A stretch of DNA of 64,000 nucleotides from positions 4,748,109 to 4,812,108 of the forward strand of contig JABAKD010000024.1 of NCBI GenBank assembly GCA_012845835.1, read 5' to 3'. This DNA is from Undaria pinnatifida (taxonomy: Eukaryota; Sar; Phaeophyceae; Laminariales; Alariaceae). A program made the translations under genes and the position numbers. How positions within the stretch are numbered: the stretch's first letter is position 1; each line of letters opens with the position of its first letter. This document shows positions 22,530-43,481 of the stretch, in pieces. The notes beneath the pieces were generated by a model. It saw only the letters and a list, made by a program, of their open reading frames with translations. It ran no database searches and was not told the origin of the DNA.

Positions 22530-25240
22530 GGGGCTCGCTAAATTGGTGAGCTGTGCAAATGAAAGCCGGCGCATCCAAATAGACAACAGTGTACTCGAAA
22601 AATGTTTTTTCCTGCCACTCCGGTCATCCAACAACGCTTTCAGACCACCCAACAACGCTTTCAGGGTTAACCATGACGGAGAGTAACTCAATGTCGACAA
22701 TCACCACGTGTACGCGCGGCAAACAGCAACATTTTGGAGCATAGCAGTAACAGGTACCTGGTATTAGGTAGTAAATCATTAACCCTGTTGGGACTTCAAA
22801 CTTTACAGGGAAAAATTGACAACAAAACGAAAACATGACAGCATAGGCCCCAGATTGGTTGGGAAAGATAAATTTGCAGTCCGACCTACAATGCGAGGAG
22901 TCGATATTATATGGCACGGCTGCAGCACTGTCCTACCCGTACTAGTTTTGAAATGAAATGCTTTCGCAGCGGGAATAGGCCTCATAACGACAAGACATGT
23001 CTACGATCTAGGGTGAAATGCTACCGGGCCTCTCAAAAGACAGGGCGGCTCAAGAAACCTAGCCAAAACAATTCGGGGAAACAAGAAGTTCGATGGCTGT
23101 TATACTGAAGTTAGTGCAGGACACGACCTTTGTCCATAAAGAAGTCTAGCCTAAATCAATATATCGATTTATCATCGAGGGCCGGTACTGTAGTAGTCTT
23201 CAACGGGCAAAACATGATCGTGATAACTCACCTGAGTGGACGACAGGAGTTGACCGGTAGAGGGCAGAGACGCCTCTTCCGAGGCACCAGGCAACGGCAC
23301 GTTGGGGGCGGCCGCGGGAAACCTCTCGAGGTGCATCAGAATCATCGATGCAGTAAAAATCCACGTCCAGATCCTGACACACAGCATCGAAATCCGGGTC
23401 CAGACACAAGGTGAATGACTGCAAAGCCAATGCGAAGGGTTTCGGCGACCGATCAGCTAAACATACATCTTTCGGAGGCAATGCAAGTCTAACCGAACGT
23501 GTATTATACCATATAACCGCCTGCGGTAGTCCCAGCCTCGAGAAAAATTCCCACCCTGTTCTTCCCGCTTACGCAATGTGCTGCTCGCTGTGTTTTGGTG
23601 CTCTCGTGTGCTCATTGGATTGCCGAGGCTCCTCTCTTCAGCAAACCGTATGACCTTGTTTGGATGCGAGATTTGTCTTGTTAAAAAAACAAAAAAGGTT
23701 GTCGCGTGGTGGGATGCATGGAAATCTTCTTTTCCAAAAATGCTACAAAACAGAATATCTAACTTTTGTGCAATGCTTCAGTAGAGATAAAACAAAAGCA
23801 AGCAAGAACACGACAATGAACCAAATAAAATGAAACAACCTAACCGGTGTCTGGGCAGCACCCAAACTGGGGTCCGAGCGAAACTACTAGAAGCTTAGCA
23901 AGCACATTAGACTGAGCTTTCCACCCAAATACACCCAGCACAACAAGTTTCCGTGCTGATGCCTCCTTTTTGAGCGACGAGCTGTGTGGTCGCCAACTAC
24001 AAGAAAGAGATACGTACACATCCCAAATACGGTAAGGAGATTTGCCGATGCAATGCCAAACGCAATCAAAACGAAGGTGACAATATAACCAGCCTGGCAG
24101 AACCCCCAAAAGGCCCTTAATCGGATACCTCACTGTACCTGGGCCATGAATACGTGTTTCTTATAATATTAAACTGCTTTTCCACATACTTCAGTACACA
24201 TAAGATGGAGCTCTTCGATTGTGGGTTGGATGGTTGATTGACTTGCAGATGATTGGTTCTTATGATACGATACAGTATCATATCGTATAGCATACTCCGT
24301 CTAGCCGAAGCGATTTGGTTATTGAACATTTAGCATTTCGAAATGGATCAATTGACAATAATCAAGTAGCTCTGGTGAGTATTATCGTCACGGCTACAGA
24401 TACTTTCAAACAACGATAACCTCGGTGATTACTGTATGATTAAAAACAAGCAATGGCACAATTTACTCAACTTGTACGTTGATTATGTGTGGTAGTTGTC
24501 AGCACTACTGTCGTATATATTGATTACTTTCAACTTAAAAATAGATACTTGGTCGAGCCGTCAGTATCGTGGTTTTATTTGTAAATTTTTGACTTGAAAC
24601 TATAGCCAATAACCGCCAACATAAAGTACAATGCTCCAGAATAGTGGGAGCAATTGTCTTGAATTCAGGGACTTTAAGGCTTGAGCACGCGATGTCGACG
24701 GATTAGGACTTTTTCCGTGATTGCTCGCCGAGATAAGCGAGCAGGACTGCGCGACTTCCCAATTGGCGGCAAGTGTCATTTACGGACGTACCGCCGCGAG
24801 TGCGTGGCCGTGGGGTCCTCAGGCAGAAGTTATCAGCCGCTGTAAACAAAACGTGTAATAAAACTGCGGTCAAGAAAAAACATCCGTCTCAGGAATTGCC
24901 AGAAACTACAACCTAAAGCGATTTCGAATATCGGAATTCTGAGAGGAAAAGGCGAAATTGGTTTGAGCGGTAAATACAACGAAGCGTCACGGTACGAATT
25001 TTACTGCCACGTGTGTTGGACGTAATTATTTCTGGGAAACGGTTGAGCCAATAATGTCGCGGGAAAAAATGGCATTAATAAGGGGTCGCAGCATTTGTTT
25101 GCTCGGTGTAACCGCAAAAGCGAGCGTATCACGATATCAACAACGCGACAACAAAAAAAAAATCATGACAGCATTGGCCCCTGCTCGTGTGGGGACAAAA
25201 CGTTTGTTGTCCGACCTACAATGCGAGGAGTGGATAGTAT
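22530..25240. repeat. Block B2, left portion
   Basis: Aligns with B1 13.69-16.2 kb. Shared landmarks include the palindromic GATACAGTATC stretch (about 24269; 15336 in B1) and ATAGATACTTGGTCGAGC. It carries a TM-like run and the frame-disrupted exon P. The rest appears to be intron or intergenic sequence. Confidence 0.7.
23232..23418 (-). pseudogene. Exon P in B2, frame disrupted (187 bp)
   Basis: Same acceptor (GGCTTTGCAG|TCATTC) and donor (CACTCAG|GTGAGT) as the B1 copy, but one base longer. The acidic N-terminal half and the LPGASEEASLPSTG half therefore lie in different frames. Probably a decayed copy. Confidence 0.5.
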
Positions 25241-25564
25241 ATGGAACGGGTGCAGCATTACCCTACTCGTACTAGTTTCCAACTGAGTTGTTTTTGCAGC
25301 GGGAGCAGACCTCGTAACGACAACTCGTATCTAGGTTCTACGATGATTCGCTACAGCACCTCTCAGAGAAATATCAACTCGAGAAATCTAGCCAAACAAG
25401 TACGGGGAAACAAGAAATTCGATAGCTGTTATACCCAGGTTCGTGCAGAACACGCCTGTTTTCAATAAATAATCGAACCTAAAATCAACATGTCGTTTCC
25501 TTATCGTGGGCCGGTACTGTGCATCGTAGTCCACATTGGGCAAATTTCGATCGTGAGAACTCAC

Positions 25565-25801
25565 GTGGGTGGACGACTGGTGTTCGCCCGCAGGCGGCAG
25601 GGGCGCTTCTGTGGCACCAGGCAACGAGACGTCGGTGGCAGCCGCGGAGATCTGTCGAGACGCATCTGGTACATCAACGCAGTAATCGTCCATGCCCGGG
25701 TCTTGGCACACCGTGTCCTCATCTGGGTCAGGAAACACAGCATCTACATCCAGATCCTGACACTCAGCAGCCTCCTTCGGATTCTGATTCGCACCAAAAA
25801 A
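25565..25801 (-). CDS. Exon P copy a (237 bp, phase 0-0)
   Basis: Acceptor ATTGCCTTTGCAG|TTTTTT and donor CCACCCAC|GTGAGT bound 79 open codons. The peptide has an acidic Cys-containing half (DPDEDTVCQDPGMDDYC) and an LP-rich half (TDVSLPGATEAPLPP). Being symmetric, the exon could be included, skipped or repeated without changing frame. Function unknown. Confidence 0.5.
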
Positions 25802-25892
25802 CTGCAAAGGCAATGCGAAGAGTCTCGTCGACCCTATAGCCAACACAACAATTTCTGGAGGCGAAGCAAGTCTATTCGAACGTGATTTATAC

Positions 25893-26058
25893 CTCGGATT
25901 TCTCAGACGAAAACGAGAAACTGTTTCTAAACGGTAAATACAACGAAGCGTACATTTGACAGTCACGTTGATTGGCGGTGAACTTTTCTCTTACAACGTA
26001 AGCCAACAATGTCTCGGGAACAAATGACGTCAATGAGGCATAGCAGCATTTTTGTTTG
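25893..26058 (-). CDS. Exon Q copy a
   Basis: The candidate acceptor follows a poly-T run (ACATGGAG|CAAAC) and the donor is CCGAG|GTATAA. The peptide ASLTSFVPETLLAYVVREKF is recognisable in B1 at about 17.2-17.35 kb (ASLTLFVPETLLVYLLRETF) despite DNA divergence, which supports coding history. The donor overlaps a TATAAA string, so a promoter reading is also possible. Copies recur at 26894-27059, 27895-28060, 42133-42298 and 43128-43293. The copy at 28896 is cut by the 12.2-kb insertion. Confidence 0.35.
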
Positions 26059-26565
26059 CTCCATGTAACAGCAAAAAAAAAAAATGGCCACGGTATGCGG
26101 CAGCAACGTGTCATCGCAGTGAACCTTTGTAACGCTAAATCAACACTTGCTTGATGGACGTTTTCTCAATGGGTGTATATCAACATTTCTTCGGTAAAAT
26201 GCTGCTCGATAACATGTATAATGCGAGGAGTGGATAGTATATGGAACGGGTGCAGCATTACCCTACTCGTGCTAGTTTCCAACTGAGTTGTTTTTGCAGC
26301 GGAAGCAGACTTCGCCACGATAACTCGCCTCTAGGTTCTACGGTGATTCGCTACAGCGCCTCGCGGAGAAAGATCAACTCGAGAAAACCTAGCCAAACAA
26401 GTACGGGGAAACAAGAAATTCGATAGCTGTTATACCCAGGTTCGTGCAGAACACGCCCGTTTTCAATAAATAATCGAACCTAAAATCAACATGTCGTTTC
26501 CTTATCGTGGGCCGGTACTGTGCATCGTAGTCCACATTGGGCAAATTTCGATCGTGAGAACTCAC

Positions 26566-26802
26566 GTGGGTGGACGACTGGTGTTCGCCCGCACGCGGCA
26601 GGGGCGCTTCTGTGGCACCAGGCAACGATACGTCGGTGGCAGCCGCGGGCATTTGTCGAGACGCATCTGGTACATCGACGCAGTAATCGTCCATGCCCGG
26701 GTCTTGGCACACCGTGTCCTCATCTGGGTCAGGAAACACAGCATCTACATCCAGATCCTGACACTCAACAGCCTCCTTCGGAACCTGATTCGCACCAAAA
26801 AA
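26566..26802 (-). CDS. Exon P copy b
   Basis: Same length, phase and splice sites as copy a. Variant RQMPAAATDVS. Confidence 0.5.
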
Positions 26803-27566
26803 CTGCAAAGGCAATGCGAAGAGTCTCGTCGACCCTATAGCCAACACAACAATTTCTGGAGGCGAAGCAAGTCTATTCGAACGTGATTTATACCTCGGAT
26901 TTCTCAGACGGAAACGAGAAACTGTTTCTAAACGGTAAATACAACGAAGCGTACATTTGACAGTCACGTTGATTGGCGGTGAACTTTTCTTTTACAACGT
27001 AAGCCAACAATGTCTCGGGAACAAATGACGTCAATGAGGCATAGCAGTATTTTTGTTTGCTCCATGTAACAGCAAAATAAAAAACGTGCCACGGTATGCG
27101 GCAGCAACTTGTCATCGCAGTGAACCTTTGTAATGCTAAATCAACACTTGCTCGATGGACGTTTGCTCAATGGGTGTATATCAACATTTCTTCGGTAAAA
27201 TGCTGCTCGATAACATGTATAATGCGAGGAGTGGATAGTATATGGAACGGGTGCAGCATTACCCTACTCGTGCTAGTTTCCAACTGAGTTGTTTTTGCAG
27301 CGGAAGCAGACTTCGTAACGACAACTCGTCTCTAGGTTCTACGGTGATTCGCTACAGCGCCTCTCAGAGAAAGATCAACTCGAGAAAACCTAGCCAAACA
27401 AGTACGGGGAAACAAGAAATTCGATAGCTGTTATACCCAGGTTCGTGCAGAACACGCCCGTTTTCAATAAATAATCGAACCTAAAATCAACATGTCGTTT
27501 CCTTATCGTGGGCCGGTACTGTGCATCGTAGTCCACATTGGGCAAATTTCGATCGTGAGAACTCAC

Positions 27567-27803
27567 GTGGGTGGACGACTGGTGTTCGCCCGCACGCGGC
27601 AGGGGCGCTTCTGTGGCACCAGGCAACGAGACGTCGGTGGCAGCCGCGGAGATCTGTCGAGACGCATCTGGTACATCAACGCAGTAATCGTCCATGCCCG
27701 GGTCTTGGCACACCGTGTCCTCATCTGGGTCAGGAAACACAGCATCTACATCCAGATCCTGACACTCAGCAGCCTCCTTCGGAACTTGATTCGCACCAAA
27801 AAA
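27567..27803 (-). CDS. Exon P copy c
   Basis: Same length, phase and splice sites as copy a. Variant RQISAAATDVS. Confidence 0.5.
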
Positions 27804-28567
27804 CTGCAAAGGCAATGCGAAGAGTCTCGTCGACCCTATAGCCAACACAACAATTTCTGGAGGCGAAGCAAGTCTATTCGAACGTGATTTATACCTCGGA
27901 TTTCTCAGACGGAAACGAGAAACTGTTTCTAAACGGTAAATACAACGAAGCGTACATTTGACAGTCACGTTGATTGGCGGTGAACTTTTCTCTTACAACG
28001 TAAGCCAACAATGTCTCGGGAACAAATGACGTCAATGAGGCATAGCAGCATTTTTGTTTGCTCCATGTAACAGCAAAAAAAAAAAATGGCCACGGTATGC
28101 GGCAGCAACGTGTCATCGCAGTGAACCTTTGTAACGCTAAATCAACACTTGCTTGATGGACGTTTTCTCAATGGGTGTATATCAACATTTCTTCGGTAAA
28201 ATGCTGCTCGATAACATGTATAATGCGAGGAGTGGATAGTATATGGAACGGGTGCAGCATTACCCTACTCGTGCTAGTTTCCAACTGAGTTGTTTTTGCA
28301 GCGGAAGCAGACTTCGCAACGACAACTCGTCTCTAGGTTCTACGGTGATTCGCTACAGCGCCTCGCGGAGAAAGATCAACTCGAGAAAACCTAGCCAAAC
28401 AAGTACGGGGAAACAAGAAATTCGATAGCTGTTATACCCAGGTTCGTGCAGAACACGCCCGTTTTCAATAAATAATCGAACCTAAAATCAACATGTCGTT
28501 TCCTTATCGTGGGCCGGTACTGTGCATCGTAGTCCACATTGGGCAAATTTCGATCGTGAGAACTCAC

Positions 28568-28804
28568 GTGGGTGGACGACTGGTGTTCGCCCGCACGCGG
28601 CAGGGGCGCTTCTGTGGCACCAGGCAACGATACGTCGGTGGCAGCCGCGGAGATCTGTCGAGACGCATCTGGTACATCGACGCAGTAATCGTCCATGCCC
28701 GGGTCTTGGCACACCGTGTCCTCATCTGGGTCAGGAAACACAGCATCTACATCCAGATCCTGACACTCAGCAGCCTCCTTCGGAACCTGATTCGCACCAA
28801 AAAA
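28568..28804 (-). CDS. Exon P copy d
   Basis: Same boundaries. It combines nucleotide variants of copies a/c with those of copy b, so it looks like a conversion mosaic. Confidence 0.5.
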
Positions 28805-29051
28805 CTGCAAAGGCAATGCGAAGAGTCTCGTCGACCCTATAGCCAACACAACAATTTCTGGAGGCGAAGCAAGTCTATTCGAACGTGATTTATACCTCGG
28901 ATTTCTCAGACGGAAACGAGAAACTGTTTCTAAACGGTAAATACAACGAAGCGTACATTTGACAGTCACGTTGATTGGCGGTGAACTTTTCTCTTACAAC
29001 GTAAGCCAACAATGTCTCGGGAACAAATGACGTCAATGAGGCATAGCAGTA

Positions 29052-29218
29052 AAATCGTTTTCCAGAAAATGAGACATCGATGGTACGGAGGTGGCTCCAT
29101 GATTTGGGAGCGGTGAATTACTTGGAGAATCTAGGCCACATCGATCATTGTGCATGTTTCCCACGAACCCAAAGCCAGAGAACATACGTTGAAGGAGAAA
29201 TACTGAGGAAACGAGGAG
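29052..29218. repeat. Left-end sequence of the insertion, copy 1
   Basis: About 165 bp from TTTCCAGAAAATGAGACATCG to GAGAAATACTGA match 40668-40828 almost perfectly. Confidence 0.85.
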
Positions 29219-29219
29219 A

Positions 29220-30980
29220 TTGTCGTCCGCGTCGTCCCAGGCGGCTCTGTCGTTGGGGTTGACTGCCGCCGCTCTAGCCGTGGAGTGGACTTCGCGGACT
29301 CCCCGTTTTGCACAATTCCAAATACGAACCTGCACCAATACGACAGCTTTCTTCGGAGCAGGAAGGAGCACAAGACCCAAGGAACTTGGGGAGCCGCGTG
29401 TATGGGACTTATCTCGGGGGCTAAACTCCGTGGCGTCAACTGGCGTGTACTGTGACATGAGTACCCAGGCGGGGCTCGCAGGTTTGCTTGCCTCCGTTTA
29501 CGCAGTAAAACTCACTCGTAGAGGTCTTATGGCGTTATGATCGCACTGAAATATGGGAGAAAGCTGACATGGGTGGATGCGACCAGATGGACAGCGTGGA
29601 GAAGAAGTATACAAACCACTTATTATCCTTCGAGCTACAACTAACATGTAGCTGACGTTTTCGCACGCACCTCGTACATACAGCAGTAGTACCGTATTCA
29701 TATACCAGGCATACAGCAGGATTTCCACCAGCAGATTGAGCACACCACCAATGAATAGCAGTCGTTTCCCGTGGCCTCTGCTGTGTCGAGCGACTGTTTC
29801 TGTTGCGTCGCTCTTCTAGTGCTGATGATGGCACTGCTTCTTCTATCTATTCATAAATATGTAGTTTCACGAACAGAAAAGAGGCCTTCGGGCAAGTAGT
29901 CGGCATGGGGGTTGGTCGGGCACGATATTACACTACAACGTACGAACAACTGCCCCGTAGTGCGTGCTCACAACAGCAGCCAGGGATATCGGGTGTTTTG
30001 ACCTTCTCTATACCAGGTATACCCTAGAATACCTAGCGCACAACGAACGTACCGGTACTGCTGTACATGGTGGTGGGCCCTTCCATAACAAGATCGTAGA
30101 GCAAGTCAACCCGGATCAGACATGTTTCCATGATTTGAGATCCAATAATACAAGGAATATGACACCGCCCCTCAGAAGCATTGTTTTCATCAGGATAGTC
30201 CGTAGGCTGCGGGACCTACTTAGTATACTATAGCCAGGCCGCCAGGCGAAAGGCGTTGTCTGGGGGGCGTGGGTTGCATGCTGCCCTGTCCTGTGCCCTA
30301 CGAGTATTGCACCAGGATACACGGCCCTAGCTACGAGTTTAGGCACCAGGATACGACGTACCAGAGGCTGCTGGGATGCACGGTTTGATGTAGACATGTT
30401 TAGTTCCACATATATCTGGTACCTTCCATTTACCAGGTATGTTGTTTTATTTCCTTGTTTTGGAAACAATCAGCAGTACCAACGTCGGTACTTGTATGTA
30501 TCCGAAGAGACCACGCCTTACACTTCAGCCAAGTACCAAGCACGGCTGTACAGGATGTGGTGTCCAGATATTATTTTGCCTATTTTGTATGATCTGCTAT
30601 ATCCAGCCACACCCCATGCCTGATGAGTAGTACCAGGCTCCGTGCTACTGAGGGCGTTTCGCGCATGACATTGCTGGTATTTCGTGTATGATATGGAACA
30701 ATACTCGGGGATTCTGCGTGGTAACTCCTGATGTAGGTTGTGGCTCATGACTGACCACGCCCTGTTACTTTGCTGGTGGCTAGCTGCTGATGTACGCTTT
30801 GCTGGTCGCGGTTGATATATCGCTCTTGTTTTGGAAACGATTTGCAGTACCAACCTCGGTACTTGTACAACCTCGATACTTGTACTTATCTGATTAGACC
30901 ACGCCTTACCCTTCCTAAAGTACGAAGCACGGCTATACAGCAGTGTGACGTATTGCCGACTTCATTTTATTTTACATGAT
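29220..30980. other. Insert interior, no recognised gene
   Basis: A 106-codon plus-strand open frame (29220-29540) is Ala-rich at its start and lacks a recognised domain or an ATG start. Two copies of a roughly 120-bp segment (TTGGAAAC...CAGTACCAAC...ACCACGCCTTAC) lie at about 30460 and 30831. The rest holds nothing identifiable. Confidence 0.4.
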
Positions 30981-30984
30981 CTGC

Positions 30985-33900
30985 TCGCTAGTAGCTGCTG
31001 ACATACGCTTTGCTAATCGCGGATGATTTACCGATCTGATCGACGCGGCTGTGTGGTCCAGGCGTGCTTTCGGCTCTGCTGCCCATTGTTGATATACGGA
31101 CGTGCTGGCTATGTTGCATATGTCTGCGGGGCGGTGCCTGAGAAGGGTTTGCTGTGCTGATTGCTGTTGGTATACAGCTGCGCCAGAAAAGCTCTCCGTT
31201 CGCTGATCGCGGTTGATAGACCGTGCTGGTGATATACAGCTACGCCGGATATGCTGTTGCTTTGCTGATACACCACCCTGGTCGACACCGCTGCGCCAGA
31301 CATGCTATAGCTTGGTCGGTGTAGATACCGCTGCGTCAGACATGATTTCGCTTTGATCGCGGTTGATAGAGTGTGCGTCGGACATGATTACGCTTTGATC
31401 GCGGTTGATAGAGTGCGCTGGTGATATACAGCTGCGCCAGAGATGCTTTTGCTTTGCTGATCGCGGTTGATACACCGCCCAGGTCGACACGGCTGTGTCG
31501 TCCAGAAGTGCTTTCGCTTTATTTATTTTTATTTTATGCTGTTGATATACAGCTATACCGCGCTGGTGATATACAGCTGCGCCAAAGATGATTTCGCTTT
31601 GCTGATTGTGGCTGATACACCGCCCAGGTCGACACGGCTGTGTCGACCAGAAGTGCTTTCGCTTCAGTTTTGATTGCTGTTGATATACAGCTCGCGCGGT
31701 TGATACACCACCCTGGTCGACACGGCGGTGTCGTCCAGAAGCGCTTTCGTTTTATTTATTTGTATTTATTGCTGTTGATATACAGCTATACCGCGCTGGT
31801 GATATACAGCTGCGCCAGAGATGCTTTTGCTTTGCTGTTCGCGGTTGAGGCACCGCCCAGGGCGACATGGCTGTGTCGACCAGAAGTGCTTTCGCTTTCG
31901 TTCTTAATTGCTGTTGATATACAGCTTTCGCGGTTGATATACCGCCCTGGTCGACACGGCTGTTTGGTCCAGGAATGCTTTCGCATTTATTTCTGATGGC
32001 TGTTGATATACAGCTATACCGCGCTGGTGATATTCTGCTGCGCCGAATATGCTCTTGCTTTGCTGATAGCGGTTAATATACCGCCCAGGTCGACACGGCT
32101 GTGTCGTTCAGAAATGCTTTCGCCATTATTTTCGATTGCTGTTGATATACAGCTCAGATATGCTTTCGCTTTGCTGATCGTGGTTGATATACCGCGCTGG
32201 TGATATACACTTGCGCCAGATATGTTTTTGCTCTGCTGATCGCAGTTGATACCGCCCTGGTCGACATGGCTGTGTCGTCCAGAAGTGCTCTCGCTTTCGA
32301 TTTTGATGGCTGTTGATATACAGATACACCGCGCTGGTGATATACAGCTGCGCCAGAGATGCTTTTGCTTTGCTGATAGCGGTTGATACACCGCCCGGGT
32401 CGACACGGCTGTGTCGTCCAGAAGCCCTTTCGCTTTAGTTTTATTGCTGTTGATATACAGCTATACCGCGCTGGTGATACGCAGCTGCGCCAGAGATGCT
32501 TTTGCTTAGCTGATCGCGGTTGATACACCGCCAAGGTCGACACGGCTGTGTCGTCCAGAAGCCCTTTCGCTTTAGTTTTGATTGCTGTTGATATACAGCT
32601 ATACCGCGCTGGTGATATGCAGCTGCGCCAGAGATGCTGTTGCTTTGCTGATCGTGGTTGATACACCGCCCAGGTCGACACGGTTGTGTCGATCAAAAGT
32701 GCTTTCGCTTCGGTTTTGATTGCGGTTGATAATACAGCTCTCGCCATTGATACACCGCCCAGGTCGACACGGCTGTGTCGTCCAGAGATGCTTTCGCTTT
32801 AGGTTTATTTATTGCTGCTGATATACAGCTGTACCGCGCTGGTGATATACAGCTGCGCCAGAGATGATTTCGCTTTGCTGATCGTGGTTGATACACCGCC
32901 CAGGTCGACACGGCTGTGTCGACCAGAAGTGCTTTCGCTTCATTTTTGATTGCTGTTGATATACAGCTCTCGCGGTTGATATACCGCCCTGGTCGACACG
33001 ACTGTGTCGTCCAGAAGTGCTTTCGATTTATTTATTTGTATTTATTGTTCTTGATATACAGCTATACCGCGCTGGTGTATACAGCTGCGCCAGATATGCT
33101 TTTTCTTTGCTGTTCGCGGTTGAGACACCGCCCAGGTCGACGCGGCTATGTCGACCAAAAGTGCTTTCGCTTTCGTTTTTGATTGCTGTTAATATACAGC
33201 TTTCGCGGTTGATATACCGCCCTGGTCGACACGGCTGCGTGGTCCAGAAATGCTTTCGCTTTTATTTCTGATGGCTGTTGATATACAGCTATACCGCGCT
33301 GGTGATATACAGCTTCGCCGGATATGCTGATAGCGGTTGATATACCGCACTGGTCGACACGCTGTGTCGTCCAGAGGTGCTTCGCCATAATGTTCGATTG
33401 CTGTTGATATACAGCGCAGATATGCTTTCGCTTTGCTGATCGTGGTTGATATACAGCTGCGCCAGATATGTTTTGCGTCGTTGATCGCGGTTGATACCGC
33501 CCTGGTCGACATGGCTGTGTCGTCCAGAAGTGCTTTCGATTTCGATTTTGATGGCTGTTGATATACAGCTACACCGCGCTGGCGAAATAAAGCTGCGCCA
33601 GAGATGTCTTTGCTTTGCTGATTGCGGTTGATACACCGCCCAGGTCGACACGGCTGTGTCGACGAGAAGTTCTTTCACTTCAGTCTTCTGATCGCTGTTG
33701 ACATACAGCTTTCGTGGTTAATATACCGCCCAGGTCGACACGGCTGTGTCGTCCAGAAGTGCTTTCGCTTTAATTTGGATTGCTGTTGATATACAGCTAC
33801 ACCACGCTGGTGATATACAGTTGCACCAGAGATGCTTTTGCTTTGCTGATCGCGGTTGATACACCGCCCAGGTCGACACGGCTGTGTCGACCAGAAATGC

Positions 33901-36900
33901 TTTCGATTTTGTTTTTGATTGCTATTTATATGCAGCTCTCGAGGTTGATATACCGCCCAGGTCGACACGACTGTGTCGTCCAGACGTGCGTTTGCTTTGG
34001 TTTTTGATGGCTGTTGATATACAGCTATGCCACGCTCATGACGGACAGCTGCGCCGGTTATGCTCTTGCTTTGCTGATAGCGATTTATATACCGCACTGG
34101 TCGGCGCGGCTATGTCGTCCAAAAGCGTTTTCGCTTTAGATTTTGATTGCTGTTTATATACAGCTCAGATATGCTTTGACTTTGCAGATCACGGTTGATA
34201 TACAGCTGCGCCAGATATGTTTTGCTTTGCTGATCGCGGTTGATACCGCCTTCGTCGACATGGCTGCGTCATTCAGAAGTGCTTTCGATTTCGACTTGGA
34301 TGCTTTTGTATGCAGCTATATTGCCCTGGTGACATGCAGCTGCACCAGATATGGCTTAGCTCTGCTGATCGCGGTTGATATACAGCGCTGGTGAAATACA
34401 GCTGCGCCAGATATGCTTTGGTTTTGCTGATCGGGGTTGATATACCGCTCTGGTCGACACGGCTGCATTTTCTAGTAGTGCTTTCGCTTCAGGTTTTGAT
34501 TGCTGCTGATATACAACTACACCACGCTGTTGATTTACATCTGCGCCAGATATTTTTCTGCTTTGCTGATCGCGGTTGATATATTGCTCGACACGGCCGT
34601 GTCGTCCAGAACGGCTTCGCTTCAAGTTTTTGATGCCTGTTGACGTACAGCTATACCGCGCTGGTGACATACATCTGCGCCAGATATTTCTCTTCCGGCT
34701 GATCGCGGATGATATACCGCTCTGGTCGACACGGCTGTGTTGTCCAAAACGGCATCGCTTAAAGCTTTCGATGGCTCTTGATATACAGCTGCGCTATATA
34801 TGCTTCCGCTATGCTGATTGCGGTTGATGTTCCGCGCTGTTGACACACAGCTGCGCTCTGGCTGCCACGGGTGTGTCGTCCAGAGTGGCTTCGCTTTAAG
34901 TTTTTGATTGCTGTTGACATACAGCTATACCGCGCTGGTGACATACATGTGCGCCAGATATGTTTCTTGCTGCTGATCGCGGTTGATCTATCGCCCTGGT
35001 CGACGCAGCTGCGTCGTCCAGAACGGTTTCGCTTTAACCTTGTGATGGCTGTTGATATATAGCTGCGCCAGATATATATGCTCCCGCTGTGCTGATAGCG
35101 GTTAATGTTCCGCGCTGTTGATATACAGCTGTGCCAGATATTATTTCCCTTTGCTGATCGCGGTTGGTATACCGTGGTGTTGATATACAGTTGCGCCGGG
35201 TATGCTTTTGCTTTGCTGATCGCGGTTGATATACAGCGCTGGTCGGCACGGCCGTGTCGCCCAGCGGTGCTTTTGCTTAGTATTGTGATTGCTGTTGATA
35301 TACGGCTGCGCCAGATATGCTTTCGCTTTGCTGACCGCGGTTGATATACCGCGCTGGTGATGTACAGCTGCGACAGATATGCTTTTGATTTACTGAACGC
35401 GATTGATATACCACTCTGGTGATATACAGTTGCGCCATATATGCCTTTGCTTTGCTGATCGCGGTTGACGTCCTGCCCTCGTCGGCTGCGTCGCCCAGCA
35501 GGGCTTTCGCTTAAAGTTTCGATTGCTGTTGATACACAGCTATACCGCGCTGCTGGTGATATACGGCTGTGCCAGATAGTGCTAGATATGCTTCGCTTCG
35601 CTGATCGCAGTTGATATACCGCGCTGGTAATACGCAGTTGCGCTAAATAGACATTTGCTTGGCTAATCTCGCAGTTGATATTCCGCCCTGGTCGACACGG
35701 CTGTGTCGTCCAGAAGCCCTTTCGCTTTAGTTTTGATTGCTGTTCGTATGCAGCTATACCGCGCTAGTGATATACAGCTGCGCCAGATATGCTCTTGCTT
35801 TGCTGATTGCGGTTGATACACCACTCTGGTCAACACGGTTGTGTCGTCAAGAAGGGTTTTCGCTTCAGTTTTCTGATTGCTGTTGAATCCGGCGCGCCAG
35901 ACATTATTTTGCTTTGCTGATCGCGGTTTATATACAGCGGCACCAATTGCGTTTTGCGTTGCTGATTGCGGTTGATTTACGGCGCTGGTGATAACAGCTG
36001 TGTCATAGATGTCTTTGGTTTGCTGATCGCGGTGAATTTACCGCTCTGGCAGTCACGACCGTGTCGTCCAGCAGCGCTGTCGCTTTGGTGTCCTGACCGC
36101 TGTTGATATATTGCTACGACAATATGTTTTCGCTCGGCTGATCGCGGTTGATACACCGCACTTTAATATGCAGCTGTGCCAGATATACTTTCTTTCTGTG
36201 AATCGCAGTTGATATACCGCTCTGCTCGACACGGCAGTGTGGCCCAGAAGTGCTTTCGCTTTCCTGATCGTAGTTGATATACGACTGGATTAGTTATGTT
36301 TTCGCGTTGCCGATTGGTTATGCCGCAGTGGGGACATACACACTTCATGGCCGGCTGGGCCAAACGTGCTTTCGCTCTGCTGATCACCATGGATGTACGG
36401 CTATGCCAGATATGCTTTCGCGCTGCTGACCGTGGTTACATCGCTCTGGTCGACACGACTGTCGCCCAGCAGCGTTTTCGCTTTGCTGCTCGGGGTTGAT
36501 ATGCAGCTGTGCCTTTTGTACTTTCGCCTTGAAAAAATCGCGGGCGCGGGTGTGCCTGAGGGAGTTGGTTTTGCCGATCGCTGTTGATATACAGGGGTCG
36601 CAGTTATTATTTCGCTTTGCGGATCGCGGGGATCTACCGCTCTGGTCGACACGGTTGTGGCGTCTTGAATGGCCTTCGCTTTGCTGTTTGTTGACATACG
36701 ACTGGGCTGGGCGTATTTTGCTTTGACGATACGCGTCTAGGCGATCTCGCTGGGCCGATCGCGGTTGATGTGCCGCCCTGGTCGACTCATCGCGGTTAAT
36801 GTACCGCCCTGGTCGACACGGCTGCGTCGTCCAGCAGTGCATCTGCTTCCTTGCTCACGGTTGATACACGGCTGGGTTAGTTGTATTTTGCTGTGCTGAT

Positions 36901-36930
36901 TAGTTAGGCTGCTCATTGACATGGTGGTAT
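30985..36930. repeat. Satellite array, about 137-bp monomer (over 40 copies)
   Basis: GTTGATACACCGCCC recurs at spacings of about 137-138 bp (e.g. 32382, 32519, 32657). Each monomer is a dimer of related roughly 68-bp halves, one with CCCAGGTCGACACGGCTGTGTCGTCCAGAAG and one with ATACCGCGCTGGTGATATACAGCTGCGCCAG. Monomers become more divergent and shorter from about 34 kb rightward. Long open frames on both strands are a by-product of the stop-poor monomer. Confidence 0.9.
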
Positions 36931-39320
36931 TACGGTTGCTATCGGTTGCTATTGTTTCGCTCCTCGCTAGCAATATATCGCTTCCATAGGCACGGCGGTG
37001 CCAGCGGGCTTTGCGTCGCTGACGTCGGTACGGCAGTAGCAGCGGTTTTTTGTTCCGCTGGCCTCGGTACGTTGTGCTGCCAACTCTCTGGTCGCTGGTT
37101 GGGTGTAGTGGATATACCACCATCGCTGGATCGGCTTTGCCGGGGGTATGTTGTCTTTCCAGTTGCTGAGGTACACAGATGGTTCGGCTGTCTTCATTGC
37201 CGCGGCTGACTTCGGATCGCGGCTGAGATACAGCTATGGCGGACATGGGTCAGCGTTGCGACTGCTATACCACTCGTTACTGTCGATATACACTTCATGC
37301 TGACGCAGTTTAATCAGAGGCGACTGCGTGTGTCGCGGGTTGCGGGGTTACACAGCTAGGGTTGGTGTGCTGACAACGCCGTTGCAGTCGATACGGCATA
37401 TATCTCGGATGCCGATGCCGCTGCTCCCTTGTCTTCTCACCGACGCGCGCGGGTTACGGTTTAATAATGGGCGGGGTTACCATGTGGCAGGTTAACCCGC
37501 TTCTGCTGCGAGAGATAGAGACTTTGCGAAACAAGATCGGAACGAACTCATGGTCTAACTTCGCTGGTTGCTGGTTGGTTGCGGTTAGCACACGTATCTT
37601 GCTGGTTGTTGTGTTCATCCAGATGTTGACAATTATCTTCGTGCCGCTACTGATTCACGAGTCGCGGTTGAGACACAGTTGTTGGTGACATGGGTCAGGG
37701 TGGCGACCGCTATACCGACCGCTATACCGACCGCTGTACCTCTCTTTACTGTGGATATACAGTTCATGCTGATGCAGTTTCATCAGGGATGGCTGCATGT
37801 TTCGCTTGTTGCGGTGGTTACACAGCTATCGTTGACGCGCAGATCGAACAGTTATCACTGGCTCGGCTGCACCAGATGCTTTTGCTTTGCGGATTGCTGT
37901 GGGTACTAATACCCCCTTTGGGACTTCGGAGAGCAACGTTGACGAATATAACTGGCAATTGCAGGGTCAGCCACACGACGTTACACGGGGTGCTAGCTTA
38001 AGGAGTGGGAATTTTCATGTGCGACTCCAACGCAAGAAGCTGCGCGATACGCGCGTAGCATGACACACCGTGTGCTACGCACTCATGCTATGACGATGAC
38101 CGCCTTTCTTACTTGTTTTATCGCTATGCGTGGGCTCCGAAAGGGGTAATGTCGGTATTAATGTGTGTCGCTGACACACGGCTGTGTGGATATGCAACCA
38201 TCATTGGCACTGTTGTGCCAGAGATGGTTTCACTTTGCTGATCACTGTTGATATACAGCTGTGCCAAAAGTACTTTCGCTTTGCGGGTTGCTGCTAACAT
38301 ACAGCTATTGCCCACACTGATGTGTTGTCGCTGTTGCCTCGCTAGTCGCCGTTGATAGTCGTTGATCACTGTCGCTGTTGATATACAGCGGTTGATGGCA
38401 CAGCTGTCATATTGGCTGTTTCGTCGCTGATTGCTGTTATACGACGATCTCCGGCGCGGGCTATTGACTGTTGCTTCGCTGATCAATGTTGGTATACAAC
38501 AATCTCCGGCGCAGCCGTGCCGGAGCTGCTTTGCGTGACTGCTGACGTGGCTGGGGTATGGTTGCGGTGGCTTCGCTAGTCGCTGTCGGTATACAGCAAT
38601 CACGAGCACGGTTGTGCCAGAGGCTCTACTTCGCTGACCTCGGCGTGGCAGTGCCAGAGGCTTCTGGTTGGCGGATCTCGGCCCGGCGGTGCTGGAGGCT
38701 TTGTTTTTGCTGATCTCTATAGATATACAGCTATGACTGGCACGGCGGTATTATCTCTGGGCCGCTGCAGTTGATTTGCTTGTTGCTGATGATAGTTTCT
38801 GGGTGCTGTATCAATATATAAAAGCCATCGATCACACGACTGTGTCCATACATAATGGCCGCTGCTTCGTGGATTGAGAATGTTGTACCATCATCGCTAT
38901 CACGGCGGTGCCGGAGATGCTTTTGCCTAGCTGATTGCTGATGTCAAACAGATACTGACGCCTGTCTTCGTCGCCGCTATTGCTTCGCAAGTCGCGGTTG
39001 ACAGACAGTTATGGCTGACATGGGGTCAGAGTTGCGCCCGCTATACCGCTTGTTACTCTGTCAATATGCATGTAATGCTTACGCAGTTTTATCAGAGGTG
39101 ATAGTGTGTATCGCTGGTGGCAGTGAATACACATCTATGGTTGATGTGCTGACAACGTGCTTACAGTCGACACTGCATACATTTCAACGGATACCGAGAC
39201 GGCTGCCCCCATGTCTTCCTACCTACGCGCGGGGGCTACGGTTTGATAACGGGCGGGTGTCGCGGTGTGGCGGGTAAACCCGCTTCTGCTGCGAGGACTC
39301 GACACGCTAAATACAGCTCG
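36931..39320. repeat. Degenerate satellite-derived region with larger duplications
   Basis: Satellite words (GATATACAGCTGTGCCA, GCTTTGCTGATC) persist but in poor order. Segments near 37.2, 37.65 and 38.96 kb resemble one another (GTCGCGGTTGA...GACATGG...GCTATACC). 37.43-37.53 and 39.22-39.31 kb share AACCCGCTTCTGCTGCGAG. No gene is supported. Confidence 0.6.
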
Positions 39321-39329
39321 TCCACAACC

Positions 39330-39620
39330 CAGTACAGGTACCTTTCGACGGCCCCATCCCCGGGTCCCTCTCCACGTGAATTGGGCGTACATGCACCGGC
39401 AGGGTGTACGCCGCGACGGGTGGGTGGGCGCATCGCTGACCCAGCAGCCCCCAACCCCCCTCGATCTGGGCGCTGCGCGGATAAGAACGCAACGCCCGCG
39501 CGCCAGGGGAGTTGGAGGTCGGGACGGGGTCGGGGTCGCCGGGAAGGCGGCGACCGCGGCCTACTCGCTTCTCCTACCATTTCGCCGCCCGCCCCCGGTC
39601 CGCCCGGGCGATAGCTGAGC
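39330..39620. other. GC-rich patch
   Basis: About 290 bp of markedly GC-rich, CpG-rich sequence unlike its surroundings, open in several frames on both strands. Composition alone explains the open frames, so no gene is called. Confidence 0.4.
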
Positions 39621-39979
39621 GGGCTGACTATAAATCTCGGCTGCAGGCCCTGTTTAATTTTCATTTTTATTTGATTTTTATCTTCTTTTGCTAGCTACTG
39701 ATAGTATCGCAGACACATGCGTGACTCATGGCAGCTGTTCCTATTTCGTTACATCATAATTTGGCTGTTAGGTAATGGTAGGTAGGAGTGGCCCGGAGTC
39801 GCGCTGTTAGTGTCTGTGCTACCGTCAGGTTTTCTCGATGGGTTGGCTGGACACACAGCATCACTTCGACGCTCGCTTAGTTGTTTAGCAGAACAAGGGG
39901 CGTAAAATGTTTCCCCCCGGTTCTAACGTACGATGCTGTGTATTGACATTCAGATAGTCTTGTATTGGCATTCGCGGTA

Positions 39980-40320
39980 GGTGGGCGCGGATGAATGGCT
40001 CTGGCACCTAAATCATCGCCAGACTGGCGTGCGGCCTATTCTACCCTCAATTCCACAGCTTTCCGCCGAACATCGGTGGGGGGACACATGGGCGATTCTC
40101 AACCCCTCGCCCACATTGCCTGTTTCGGCAGACGTATTTAGGGACCCGATGCAATGGCCGCTCCGACGGTGGTCGTGGCATGCCCCGGCGTAGGACGCCG
40201 GCGCGGGGGGGTGCGCGTTTGTGCCGGGTTTCGTGCGCAAACACGAAGCGGTTTGGGACGAACTCGTCCTGCAGGAACACCCACTCCGTGACGAGCTTAC
40301 ATCATGCTGATGCTTGGAAC
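39980..40320 (+). other. Possible retroelement polyprotein fragment (fossil)
   Basis: The frame contains protein-like sequence (FVRKHEAVWDELVLQEHP) reminiscent of the region before the RT in YR-type retroelements. This is only an impression; the fragment is short and broken. Confidence 0.2.
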
Positions 40321-40627
40321 ATGGAACAAGCAGTACCGAGGTACCATGTATGTTTTACGGTGACTACTGCTGCTCTTACGGGGAGCACCTATCAAACCAG
40401 TGACGGTGCTTCTAAGCGAACGCAAAAGTAGGCTAATCCTAATTGATTTACCACACCCGCCGGTCCTTCGCCTCGTGCACGCCACTGTATGAAAACAATT
40501 TTTAAGAAGTTTGGGTGAGGCGACGACCCCAGTCCGGTAGCCAATGCAGAGTATAAGAAGCAATGGAAGTATGGGTAGGCCCATCGGCTGGGGGAGGAGG
40601 CCTCATCTAATCCAAAACTTACTTTAA

Positions 40628-40806
40628 ATGATCAATGAAGCTGCAGAAGAATACTGCAGTATAATCGGGTTTCCAGAAAATGAGACATCGATGGTACGGA
40701 GGTGGCTCCATGATTTGGAACCGGTGAATTACTTGGAGAATCTAGGCCACATCGATCATTGTGCATGTTTCCCACGAACCCAAAGCCAGAGAACATACGT
40801 TGAATG
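40628..40806 (+). CDS. Short ORF spanning the head-to-tail junction
   Basis: A 59-codon ATG-initiated frame (MINEAAEEYCSIIGFPENET...) reads through the internal GCAGTA junction. Its first 10 or so codons are repeated at the right end of the insert (41255) and the rest at the left end (about 29056). Only the joined arrangement gives the whole frame. No homologue is recognised. It may simply reflect the ancestral sequence before circularisation. Confidence 0.25.
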
Positions 40807-41804
40807 AGAAATACTGACCATCCCACCCACCCAGCTTATGCATGCAATAGTTTCTTGTTTTACAACCTTTGCGGACCGGAGAAGTCTGCGAGCGCCTTGC
40901 CACACTCAGCCCCGTGCGGAAGCAACCAGAGATGTCTTCAAATGGATCCAAGATTAGAACAAAGCTGTTGGTTCCGGCCTACTTGAGCCTATCTGAGGCA
41001 CAGTACCGGAGCCACAACCATTGTCTTCAACCCCCGCCCAACGGGCAAGAACAAAAGGAAGCAGAAACCATTTCGGACCACCCTAGACATCCTGCGTGCT
41101 GAGTAGCTGCTGCGCCGTGTTTTGTTAAGTTTATTATATTTATTTTATTTTCCAGGATTACAGCCGCGCTGAGCGCTCAGCGCGAAGGTACATCCCGGGC
41201 GAGGCCCTCCTGCTTCGGGGCAGGAGGCCTCATCTAATCCAATAATTACTTTGAATGATCGGTGAAGCCGCAGAAGAATACTGCAGTATTTTTGTTTGCT
41301 CCATGTAACAGCAAAATAAAAAACGTGCCGCGGTATGCGGCAGCAACGTGTCATCGCAGTGAACCTTTGTAACGCTAAATCAACACTTGCTCGATGGACG
41401 TTTGCTCAATGGGTGTATATCAACATTTCTTCGGTAAAATGCTGCTCGATAACATGTATAATGCGAGGAGTGGATAGTATATGGAACGGGTGCAGCATTA
41501 CCCTACTCGTACTAGTTTCGAACTGAATTGTTCTTGCCGCGAAACAGACCTCGTAACGACAACTCGTCTCTAGGTTCTACGGTGATTCGCTACAGTGCCT
41601 CTCAACGAAAGATCAACTCGAGAAAACCTAGCCCAACAAGTACGGGGAAACAAGAAATTCGATAGCTGTTATGCCCAGGTTCGTGCAGAACACGCCCGTT
41701 TTCAATAAATAATCGAACCTAAAATCAACATGTCGTTTCCTTATCGTGGGCCGGTACTGTGCATCGTAGTCCACATTGGACAAATTTCGATCGTGAGAAC
41801 TCAC

Positions 41805-42041
41805 GTGGGTGGACGACTGGTGTTCGCCCGCAGGCGGCAGGGGCGCTTCTGTGGCACCAGGCAACGAGACGTCGGTGGCAGCCGCGGGCATTTGTCGAGA
41901 CGCATCTGGTACATCGACGCAGTAATCGTCCATGCCCGGGTCTTGGCACACCGTGTCCTCATCTGGGTCAGGAAACACAGCATCTACATCCAGATCCTGA
42001 CACTCAGCAGCCTCCTTCGGAACCTGATTCGCACCGAAAAA
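41805..42041 (-). pseudogene. Exon P copy e, acceptor lost
   Basis: The open frame is kept, but the acceptor CAG has become CTG (42042-42044), giving LPLLFFGAN instead of LPLQFFGAN. Unless another acceptor is used, this copy should be skipped in splicing. Confidence 0.5.
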
Positions 42042-42799
42042 CAGCAAAGGCAATGCGAAGAGTCTCGTCGACCCTATAGCCAACACAACAATTTCTGGAG
42101 GCGAAGCAAGTCTATTCGAACGTGATTTATACCTCGGATTTCTCAGACGAAAACGAGAAACTGTTTCTAAACGGTAAATACAACGAAGCGTACATTTGAC
42201 AGTCACGTTGATTGGCGGTGAACTTTTCTCTTACAACGTAAGCCAACAATGTCTCGGGAACAAATGACGTCAATGAGGCGTAGCAGTATTTTTGTTTGCT
42301 CCATGTAACAGCAAAATAAAAAACGTGCCACGGTATGTGGCAGCAACGTGTCATCGCAGTGAACCTTTGTAACGCTAAATCAACACTTGCTCGATGGACG
42401 TTTGCTCAATGGGTGTATATCAACATTTATTCGGTAAAATGCTGCTCGATAACATGTATAATGCGAGGAGTGGATAGTATATGGAACGGGTGCAGCATTA
42501 CCCTACTCGTGCTAGTTTCCAACTGAGTTGTTTTTGCAGCGGAAACAGACCTCGAAACGACAACTCGTCTCTAGGTTCTACGGTGATTCGCTACAGTGCC
42601 TCTCAGAGAAAGATCAACTCGAGAAAACCTAGCCAAACAAGTACGGGGAAACACCAAATTCGTTAGATGTTTTACTCAAGTTCGTGCAGAACACGCCCGT
42701 TTTCAATAAATAATCGAACCTAAAATCAACATGTCGTTTTCTTATCGTGGGCCGGTACTGTGCATCGTAGTCCACATTGGGCAAATTTCGCGAACTCAC

Positions 42800-43036
42800 G
42801 TGGGTGGACGACTGGTGTTCCCCCGAAGACGGCAGGGGCGCTTCTGTTGCAACAGGCAACGATACGTTGGTGGCAGCGGCGGGCATTTGTCGAGACGCAT
42901 CTGGTACATCGACGCAGTAGTCGTCCATGCCCGGGTCTTGGCACACCGTGTCCTCATCTGGGTCAGGAAACACAGCATCTACATCCAGATCCTGACACTC
43001 AGCTGCCTCCTTCGGAACCTGATTCGCACCAAAAAA
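42800..43036 (-). CDS. Exon P copy f
   Basis: Canonical acceptor and donor with a 237-bp length. It is the most diverged array copy (TNVSLPVATEAPLPSSGE). It is the last copy before the YR insertion. Confidence 0.45.
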
Positions 43037-43481
43037 CTGCAAAGGCAATGCGAAGAGTCTCGTCGATCCTATATCCAAAAAAACAATTTCTGGAGGCGAA
43101 GCAAGTCTATTCGAACGTGATTTATACCTCGGATTTCTCAGACGAAAACGAGAAACTGTTTCTAAACGGTAAATACAACGAAGCGTACATTTGACGGCCA
43201 CGTGGATTGGCGGTGAACTTTTCTCTTAAAATGTAAGCCAACAATGCCTCGGGAACAAATGACGTCAATGAGGCGTAGCATTATTTTTGTTTGCTCCATG
43301 TAACAGCAAAATAAAAAACGTGCCACGGGATGTGGCAGCAACGTGTCATCGCAGTGAACCTTTGTAACGCTAAATCAACACTTGCTCGATGGACGTTTGC
43401 TCAATGGGTGTATATCAACATTTATTCGGTAAAATGCTGCTCCATAACCTTTTTTTCAAGTAAACTAACACTAAGAACTGC

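Follow-up and report, generated by a model that had tools for sequence, protein, structure and literature searches.

In a window of 64,000 nucleotides from the kelp Undaria pinnatifida (contig JABAKD010000024.1, positions 4,748,109 to 4,812,108), an array of tandem satellite repeats is interrupted by 12,237 bp of other DNA. We propose that this insertion is a large non-autonomous tyrosine recombinase (YR) retrotransposon with split direct repeats (A1 ... B1-A2 ... B2), and that it landed at a GTA within a satellite unit. We give this reading a probability of about 93%. The observations behind it are the anatomy of the insertion, its many copies in unrelated flanks, the pattern of its junctions and targets, an exact empty site, the remnants of gag and reverse transcriptase (RT) genes that it carries, and a relative that looks autonomous.

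The insertion and its boundaries

The whole element lies at 29049..41285 on the forward strand, begins with GTAAAATCG, and ends with GAATACTGCA. Its boundaries were placed using aligned junctions from the family (55 distinct rows for the left end and 75 for the right end) and an empty site at 27036. The left part of the satellite array (25217..29048) is the target and holds the empty-site copy, and the right part (41286..43448) begins with GTATTTTTG. The satellite has a unit of about 1.0 kb and is interrupted in phase: when the window is compared to itself, 41283-43448 resumes the array of 25217-29051 at 93–97% identity. With the flanks rejoined, the uninterrupted unit reads GCATAGCA followed directly by GTATTTTTG at the insertion point. 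Furthermore, two repeats before the insertion, the satellite unit at 27036 reads GAGGCATAGCAGTATTTTTGTTTGCTCCAT, which is exactly the left flank plus the right flank (30 bases). Other units have GCAGC (26035 and 28037) or GGCGTAGCAGT (42275) at this point.

The sequence GCAGTA occurs at both edges of the insertion (29046-29051 and 41283-41288) and also within it (40656-40661). The right-end sequence is repeated just 5' of 40656, where it is joined to the left-end sequence, and the true right end comes 627 bp later. By self-comparison, 29046-29206 and 40656-40817 are 96.3% identical. An earlier note on this DNA had described an array split in phase at GCAGTA and an insert whose right and left ends are joined through GCAGTA at 40656, and our comparisons bear out both descriptions. 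The note also called the insert satellite-bearing. There is a tandem array inside the insert, but it belongs to the element itself, and in the self-comparison it (31.3-36.3 kb) did not match the host satellite. We consider the insertion with permuted ends to be confirmed. It is neither due to chance nor to misassembly, because the same joints recur across the genome (51 joined junctions, 53 right ends, and 15 left ends in the loci described below, and 161 places with the joint motif versus 0 for a reversed control).

A dispersed family

We searched the genome (511,146,479 bases in 68 contigs) for other copies. There are 43 exact occurrences of the right-end motif with GCAGTA directly after it, and ten pairs of them, one being that of the window copy, have a spacing of 626-627 bp. 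The motif for the B1-A2 joint is found at 161 places with up to two mismatches, and the reversed motif at none; searching the genome for this joined sequence had been suggested in the earlier note. Using the right-end motif, the best 40 matches to A1 (of 319 first-look candidates), and the best 40 matches to B2 (of 680), we cut out 68 loci, some of which overlap or cover a place that was fetched repeatedly. A scripted scan of these loci identified 51 B1-A2 joints, 53 right ends, and 15 starts of A without a preceding B. Each of these 15 A starts lies beside its own flank; one of them (L068) belongs to a solo A-B copy.

A second copy, on contig C20, is 93.3% identical to the window copy across 10,082 aligned columns, and the alignment includes the tandem array. 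In 34 distinct copies, the spacing of A2-B2 is 617-656 bp (a piece of about 0.63 kb). The median pairwise identity of these A2-B2 pieces is 97.4%, so the family is fairly young. Among the 15 pairs of left and right ends that are 0.5-16 kb apart, 13 span 9.3-13.3 kb. The family also includes solo A-B copies of 0.63-0.66 kb (L068 on C55, with 625 bp and 96% identity, and L089 on C26) as well as A-B miniatures of about 0.3 kb (L091 on C28 and L092 on C12), which are under the 0.5-kb limit for pairing. All four begin with GTAAAATCG, each beside its own flank, and they fit with a non-autonomous YR retrotransposon. In another copy (L053), an internal deletion removed B1 and A2, and the palindromic array is retained. 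Two of the 15 pairs at first resembled solo copies of about 0.67 kb: L089 is indeed a solo, but L090 is a normal B1-A2-B2 end whose joint has a few additional bases.

Ends and target

At the left end, GTAAA is next to the fixed anchor in 42 of the 55 distinct rows. Farther out, the bases of the left flank are nearly evenly mixed, except that the first outside base is often A (26 of 55). At the right end, TRCA (where R is A or G) follows GAATAC in 57 of the 75 distinct rows. In those 57 rows, TRCA is followed by GTA (32), GTT (6), GGA (5), GAA (3), or other bases; one of the 32 rows with GTA (C20:1467273) is a mutated internal joint. The junction patterns required an exact anchor of 14 bases and barred one base at one flank position, and their reversed versions gave 1 match per strand. 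Some of the rows are not termini and are kept in the denominators: a tandem repeat on C1 (left end) and at least four right-end rows, one of them the C20 row, that are followed by a start of A.

When copies are compared, the two flanks have no more in common than GTA or part of it. Together, the junctions and the empty site show integration at a short core that leaves no long target duplication. Hence the GCAGTA repeat is best read as the GTA core plus a chance GCA, and not as the target duplication of 6 bp that the earlier note had considered. The target in the window happened to read GCA|GTA, so six bases appear to be duplicated. In the autonomous relative that is described below, the left end is GTATT and the right flank is also GTATT; going by this match, bases from the target may come to lie on either side of that copy.

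In 30 of 34 distinct copies, the internal joint and the right end have the same base at R of the core (G in 15 copies and A in 15; the exceptions are two AG and two GA).

Anatomy of the window copy

The end repeats of the window copy are laid out as A1 ... B1-A2 ... B2, and all of them are direct. Split direct repeats are also found in other copies of the family and in the autonomous relative. Inverted terminal repeats with internal complementary regions, as in DIRS1, are not present at these ends. All of the features below are on the forward strand. A1, the left split direct repeat, is at 29049..29206, with the 96.3% identity to A2 noted above; A starts beside 15 different flanks at 15 loci. 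The 5' non-coding part follows (29207..31300) and contains a second A-like stretch at 30090-30192, which is 78% identical to the autonomous relative's A repeat and lies 1.04 kb inside the element. We considered that host DNA might have been captured at the left end, or that this might be a strongly diverged A with an internal duplication; the alignment would permit both.

Next comes the internal tandem array (31300..36300), with the short palindromes GCTGT-TGATAT-ACAGC, GCGGT-TGATAC-ACCGC, and CGACAC-GGCT-GTGTCG. It is also present in the C20 copy and in L053. Downstream are three fragments of genes, which we identified by comparison to L079 of the relative. A piece from the start of the gag-like frame (37298..37604) is 71.8% identical to L079 834-1091 by blastn, and tblastn aligns it to amino acids 3-46 of the gag-like protein (E = 7e-7). 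A piece from the middle of that frame (39176..39648) is 68-73% identical to L079 934-1057 and 1406-1746 by blastn and aligns to amino acids 118-165 by tblastn (E = 9e-8). The third fragment (39702..40303) contains the sequence that precedes the RT frame plus codons 1-109 of this frame (80% identity to L079 3025-3632; tblastn E = 2e-28). No match to L079 3633-7297, which includes the rest of the RT frame and the YR, was reported in the window copy. B1 (40589..40658) ends with GAATACTGCA and is joined directly to A2 (40659..40817), which ends at CTGA|CCATCCC. B2 (41217..41285) has the right end, GAATACTGCA. By eye, we also noticed a GC-rich inverted repeat where B2 starts (41200-41235), CCTCCTGC...GCAGGAGG, and L079 has a similar one. 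It is possibly a 3'-end signal.

The window copy has only fragments of gag and RT genes, instead of genes for gag, RT with RNase H, and a tyrosine recombinase, and is therefore non-autonomous. We ran 10 of 53 listed stop-to-stop frames against Pfam (nine within or at the edge of the element and one in the satellite) and rejected coding capacity; we judged two weak matches under the cut-offs (LAGLIDADG_3 and Pept_S41_N_bact) to be due to chance. Rfam gave nothing at its gathering cut-offs in 28000-43000 of the window.

A candidate helper

We scored 84 of 873 candidate YR matches, so the number of joints that are linked to a YR is a lower bound. Among 100 joints listed (of the 161), at least nine have a YR match on the same strand and up to 3 kb upstream. 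The downstream and opposite-strand controls gave 0. In six of these nine, the gap between the YR and the joint is exactly 170 bp. Some of the nine matches are partial or have stops; three (on C22, C55, and C56) cover all 515 residues without a stop.

The copy on C22 (L079/L080, about 12.85 kb) has A1, which is contained in L080, a 5' part of about 6 kb, then gag-like, RT, and YR frames, and then B1-A2-B2. The gag-like frame has 303 amino acids, including a CX2CX4HX4C knuckle. The RT frame has 767 amino acids and a YLDD motif; it matches PF00078 (E = 1.2e-5, 25.6 bits), and its best match among reverse transcriptases in PDB has E = 0.003. This frame runs well past the RT, and Pfam gave no match to a methyltransferase, a domain that follows RNase H in PAT elements. 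The YR frame has 515 amino acids; its identity to P0001, a protein that passes PF00589, is 34%. The two proteins share the pattern R ... HSFR ... W ... Y. In L079, these include R315, H429-R432, and Y464, which we take to be the catalytic R, HxxR, and Y of tyrosine recombinases.

The 22-bp B1-A2 joint of L079 is exactly that of many members of the window family; apart from R, the joint in the window copy has one base that does not match it. The B repeats of the window copy and L079 are about 86% identical. Because the A repeats are strongly different, the case for this helper depends on the 22-bp junction, the B repeats, and the gag and RT remnants. With these similarities, L079 is a candidate autonomous helper for the window family. 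Also, the A2 border CTGA|CCATCCC is identical in the window copy and the relative, and in both of them, A1 leaves the repeat at CTGA|GGA. The shared borders and the agreement at R would fit with the internal joint and the ends being templated from each other, although the agreement at R would also be expected from inheritance within two subfamilies.

Proposed mechanism and alternative explanations

We propose that proteins from the relative act on the element in trans: its transcript would be reverse-transcribed and the DNA closed into a circle, with the joint of B1 and A2 as the template for joining the two ends. Recombination between TRCA|GTA of the circle and a GTA in a chromosome, by the relative's YR, would then integrate the element and leave no long target duplication. 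In the simplest model of the junction, the circle reads GAATAC-TRCA|GTA-AAATCG, the element's GTA stays at the left, and the target's version ends up at the right. Passages in PMC3266345 give a model for DIRS1 in which a circle integrates where a trinucleotide matches and the target is not duplicated, and according to parts of PMC5633606, integration at a short shared sequence has been modelled for YR retrotransposons and circles of DIRS-1 have been verified.

Several observations weigh against our proposal. The core at the right end is not strictly GTA (25 of the 57 TRCA rows differ). The A2-B2 piece of the window family is at most 59% identical to that of L079, and all nine of the YR-linked copies that we examined carry the other type of A. 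The match of the L079 RT frame to PF00078 is below Pfam's curated cut-off (25.6 versus 29.6 bits), no RNase H family matched this frame (we read an RNase H by eye only), and neither the YR frame nor the gag-like frame of L079 has a Pfam or NCBIfam match of its own. No RNA, circle, or new insertion of the element was observed.

The earlier note had suggested that a circle from the satellite, carrying GCAGTA, re-integrated by homology at the array's GCAGTA. This idea explains the permuted, circle-like ends and the presence of GCAGTA at all three joints. A circle that recombines at a short shared sequence is correct in kind, as this is the published model for DIRS1 and other YR elements, and the A1 ... 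B1-A2 ... B2 layout is that described for PAT, Ngaro, and VIPER elements. But a satellite origin is extremely unlikely: the inserted DNA does not match the host satellite, it contains remnants of gag and the RT frame, and the same element is dispersed in many unrelated flanks, which the note itself had named as an outcome that would count against a circle. The note's other suggestion, a head-to-tail pair of some element with a 6-bp target duplication, which we took as a DNA transposon, would account for the end-to-end joint within the insert and for the six identical bases at the flanks of the window copy. We give it hardly any credence, since the supposed second unit is just 0.63 kb, with nearly constant spacing (617-656 bp) across the family, the target bases at the left are nearly evenly mixed, with GTA or less being shared, and the relative has the frames of a retroelement.

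We also considered a Crypton-like DNA transposon, which would move by YR-catalyzed excision and integration with no RNA stage and would carry the RT and gag remnants along as passengers. The YR-type ends and the GTA core would be expected, the window copy itself lacks RT, and the solo A-B and 0.3-kb copies are compatible with movement as DNA. However, in the relative, whose junction is the same, the gag-like, RT, and YR frames follow one another in this order and B1-A2-B2 begins 170 bp after the YR, and the window copy keeps parts of both the gag and RT genes. This makes a Crypton-like element very unlikely, and we prefer a YR retrotransposon.

The palindrome array

The internal array (31300-36300) has 98 perfect hairpins with stems of 5 bp, compared to 26.3 ± 4.5 in 20 dinucleotide shuffles (z = 16); this count is inflated by tandem copying, as one hairpin that was copied many times is counted many times. 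There is no such excess in the host satellite (19 versus 23.8 in shuffles) or in the relative's 5' part (28 versus 33.4), and six other stretches had z = 1.0 to 3.2. The hairpins with GCTGT/ACAGC and GCGGT/ACCGC stems differ by a compensating swap of a G-C pair to a T-A pair. A 552-base piece of the array folds better as RNA than its shuffles do (z = -5.6 for the sense strand and -4.0 for the antisense strand). Since this holds for both strands, the folds do not single out one of them.

Other YR elements and side observations

Using PF00589, we found L071-L078, and we rejected these as the helper: the end motifs of the window element had no match in stretches of 3.3-3.5 kb. L071 (on C1) and the nearly identical L073-L078 are a second family of YR retrotransposons, with copies that are at least 99% identical. 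This family has its own B1-A2-B2 end with a different junction. Its YR frame has 534 amino acids (split in two in L077) and an N-terminal match to the ALOG-type domain PF04852. L072 (on C26) matches PF00589 in a frame of 146 amino acids that is not similar to the L071 family, and is perhaps another type of YR element.

In the host satellite, both of the units that were listed have an open frame of 200 amino acids on the minus strand, which has no Pfam match. Diverged relatives of this satellite are at about 13.9-17.5 and 22.8-25.1 kb of the window. The EsV-1-7 family, which is expanded in brown algae, is very large in this genome: we scored the best 150 of 2163 candidates, and all were over the cut-off. 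Passages in PMC12477816 state that the EsV-1-7 domain has proliferated.

Significance and comparison with known systems

As this case shows, an insertion with permuted ends inside a satellite need not be a re-integrated circle and can be an ordinary transposon. Our explanation is largely ordinary; what is unusual is the element's size, its palindrome array, and an apparent excess of 12-kb copies over YR-bearing copies, given YR matches at no fewer than nine of the 100 joints (the other 91 were not individually established as 12-kb non-coding copies). YR retrotransposons are comparatively little studied, and circle closure by split repeats is largely a model. In this kelp genome, integration at a GTA core and re-templating are directly testable: the family is fairly young, a candidate helper shares its junction, target junctions can be read by the dozen, and an empty site is preserved exactly.

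Large retrotransposon derivatives (LARDs) are large non-autonomous derivatives of long terminal repeat (LTR) retrotransposons. Like LARDs, the window element has a long non-coding body between functional-looking ends, but these are YR-type ends instead of LTRs with an integrase. We tentatively suggest, as a possibility that we do not favor over its opposite, that the family is a counterpart of LARDs among YR retrotransposons: 12-kb non-coding parasites, quite possibly outnumbering their YR-bearing relatives, with an amplified palindrome array, and with A1 and A2 rewritten together. If so, then the array may serve as a structured RNA or DNA module (for packaging, or for resistance to silencing), and A could be so different between the window copy and the autonomous relative, in both places, yet keep the same CTGA|CCATCCC border because the internal junction would be re-templated from the ends in each cycle.

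We found no description of a YR element of about 12 kb that is non-coding in the titles or beginnings of abstracts among the entries listed from the open-access literature (subscription journals, supplements, and Repbase were outside this scope). There, searches for non-autonomous DIRS, Ngaro, or YR elements gave matches solely through the term "DIRS-derived." A search of PMC3783388 gave no passage on non-autonomous, solo, or circular forms, on split direct repeats, or on target sites. The class of the element is known, and provisionally, we consider the large non-coding variant to be new.

The A1-B1-A2-B2 layout is described for PAT, Ngaro, and VIPER elements in parts of PMC4157794, PMC8547959, and PMC6681497. 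In the Ectocarpus genome, 15 families of Ngaro elements and 5 PAT-like families are reported in passages of PMC12477816. Ngaro and PAT-like elements (of the DIRS order) share with the window family the A1-[ORFs]-B1-A2-B2 layout (ORFs being open reading frames), the short core, and the lack of a long target duplication, and they share the order of gag-like, RT, and YR genes with L079. In contrast, the window copy is non-coding, has 12.2 kb, and has a palindrome array, and it may belong with either of the two. DIRS1-like elements, as they appear in sections of PMC3266345, likewise have a circle junction that recombines with a trinucleotide matching it, with no target duplication, but their terminal repeats are inverted while those of the window element are direct. 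SIRE, a small non-autonomous A2-B2 derivative of VIPER (per portions of PMC6681497), is the same kind of thing as the window element, namely a non-autonomous offshoot of a YR retrotransposon with split direct repeats. It is an A2-B2 piece of about 0.4 kb, whereas the window form has about 12 kb with A1, B1, A2, and B2 all present; within this family, the solo A-B copies L089 and L068 are the SIRE-like forms.

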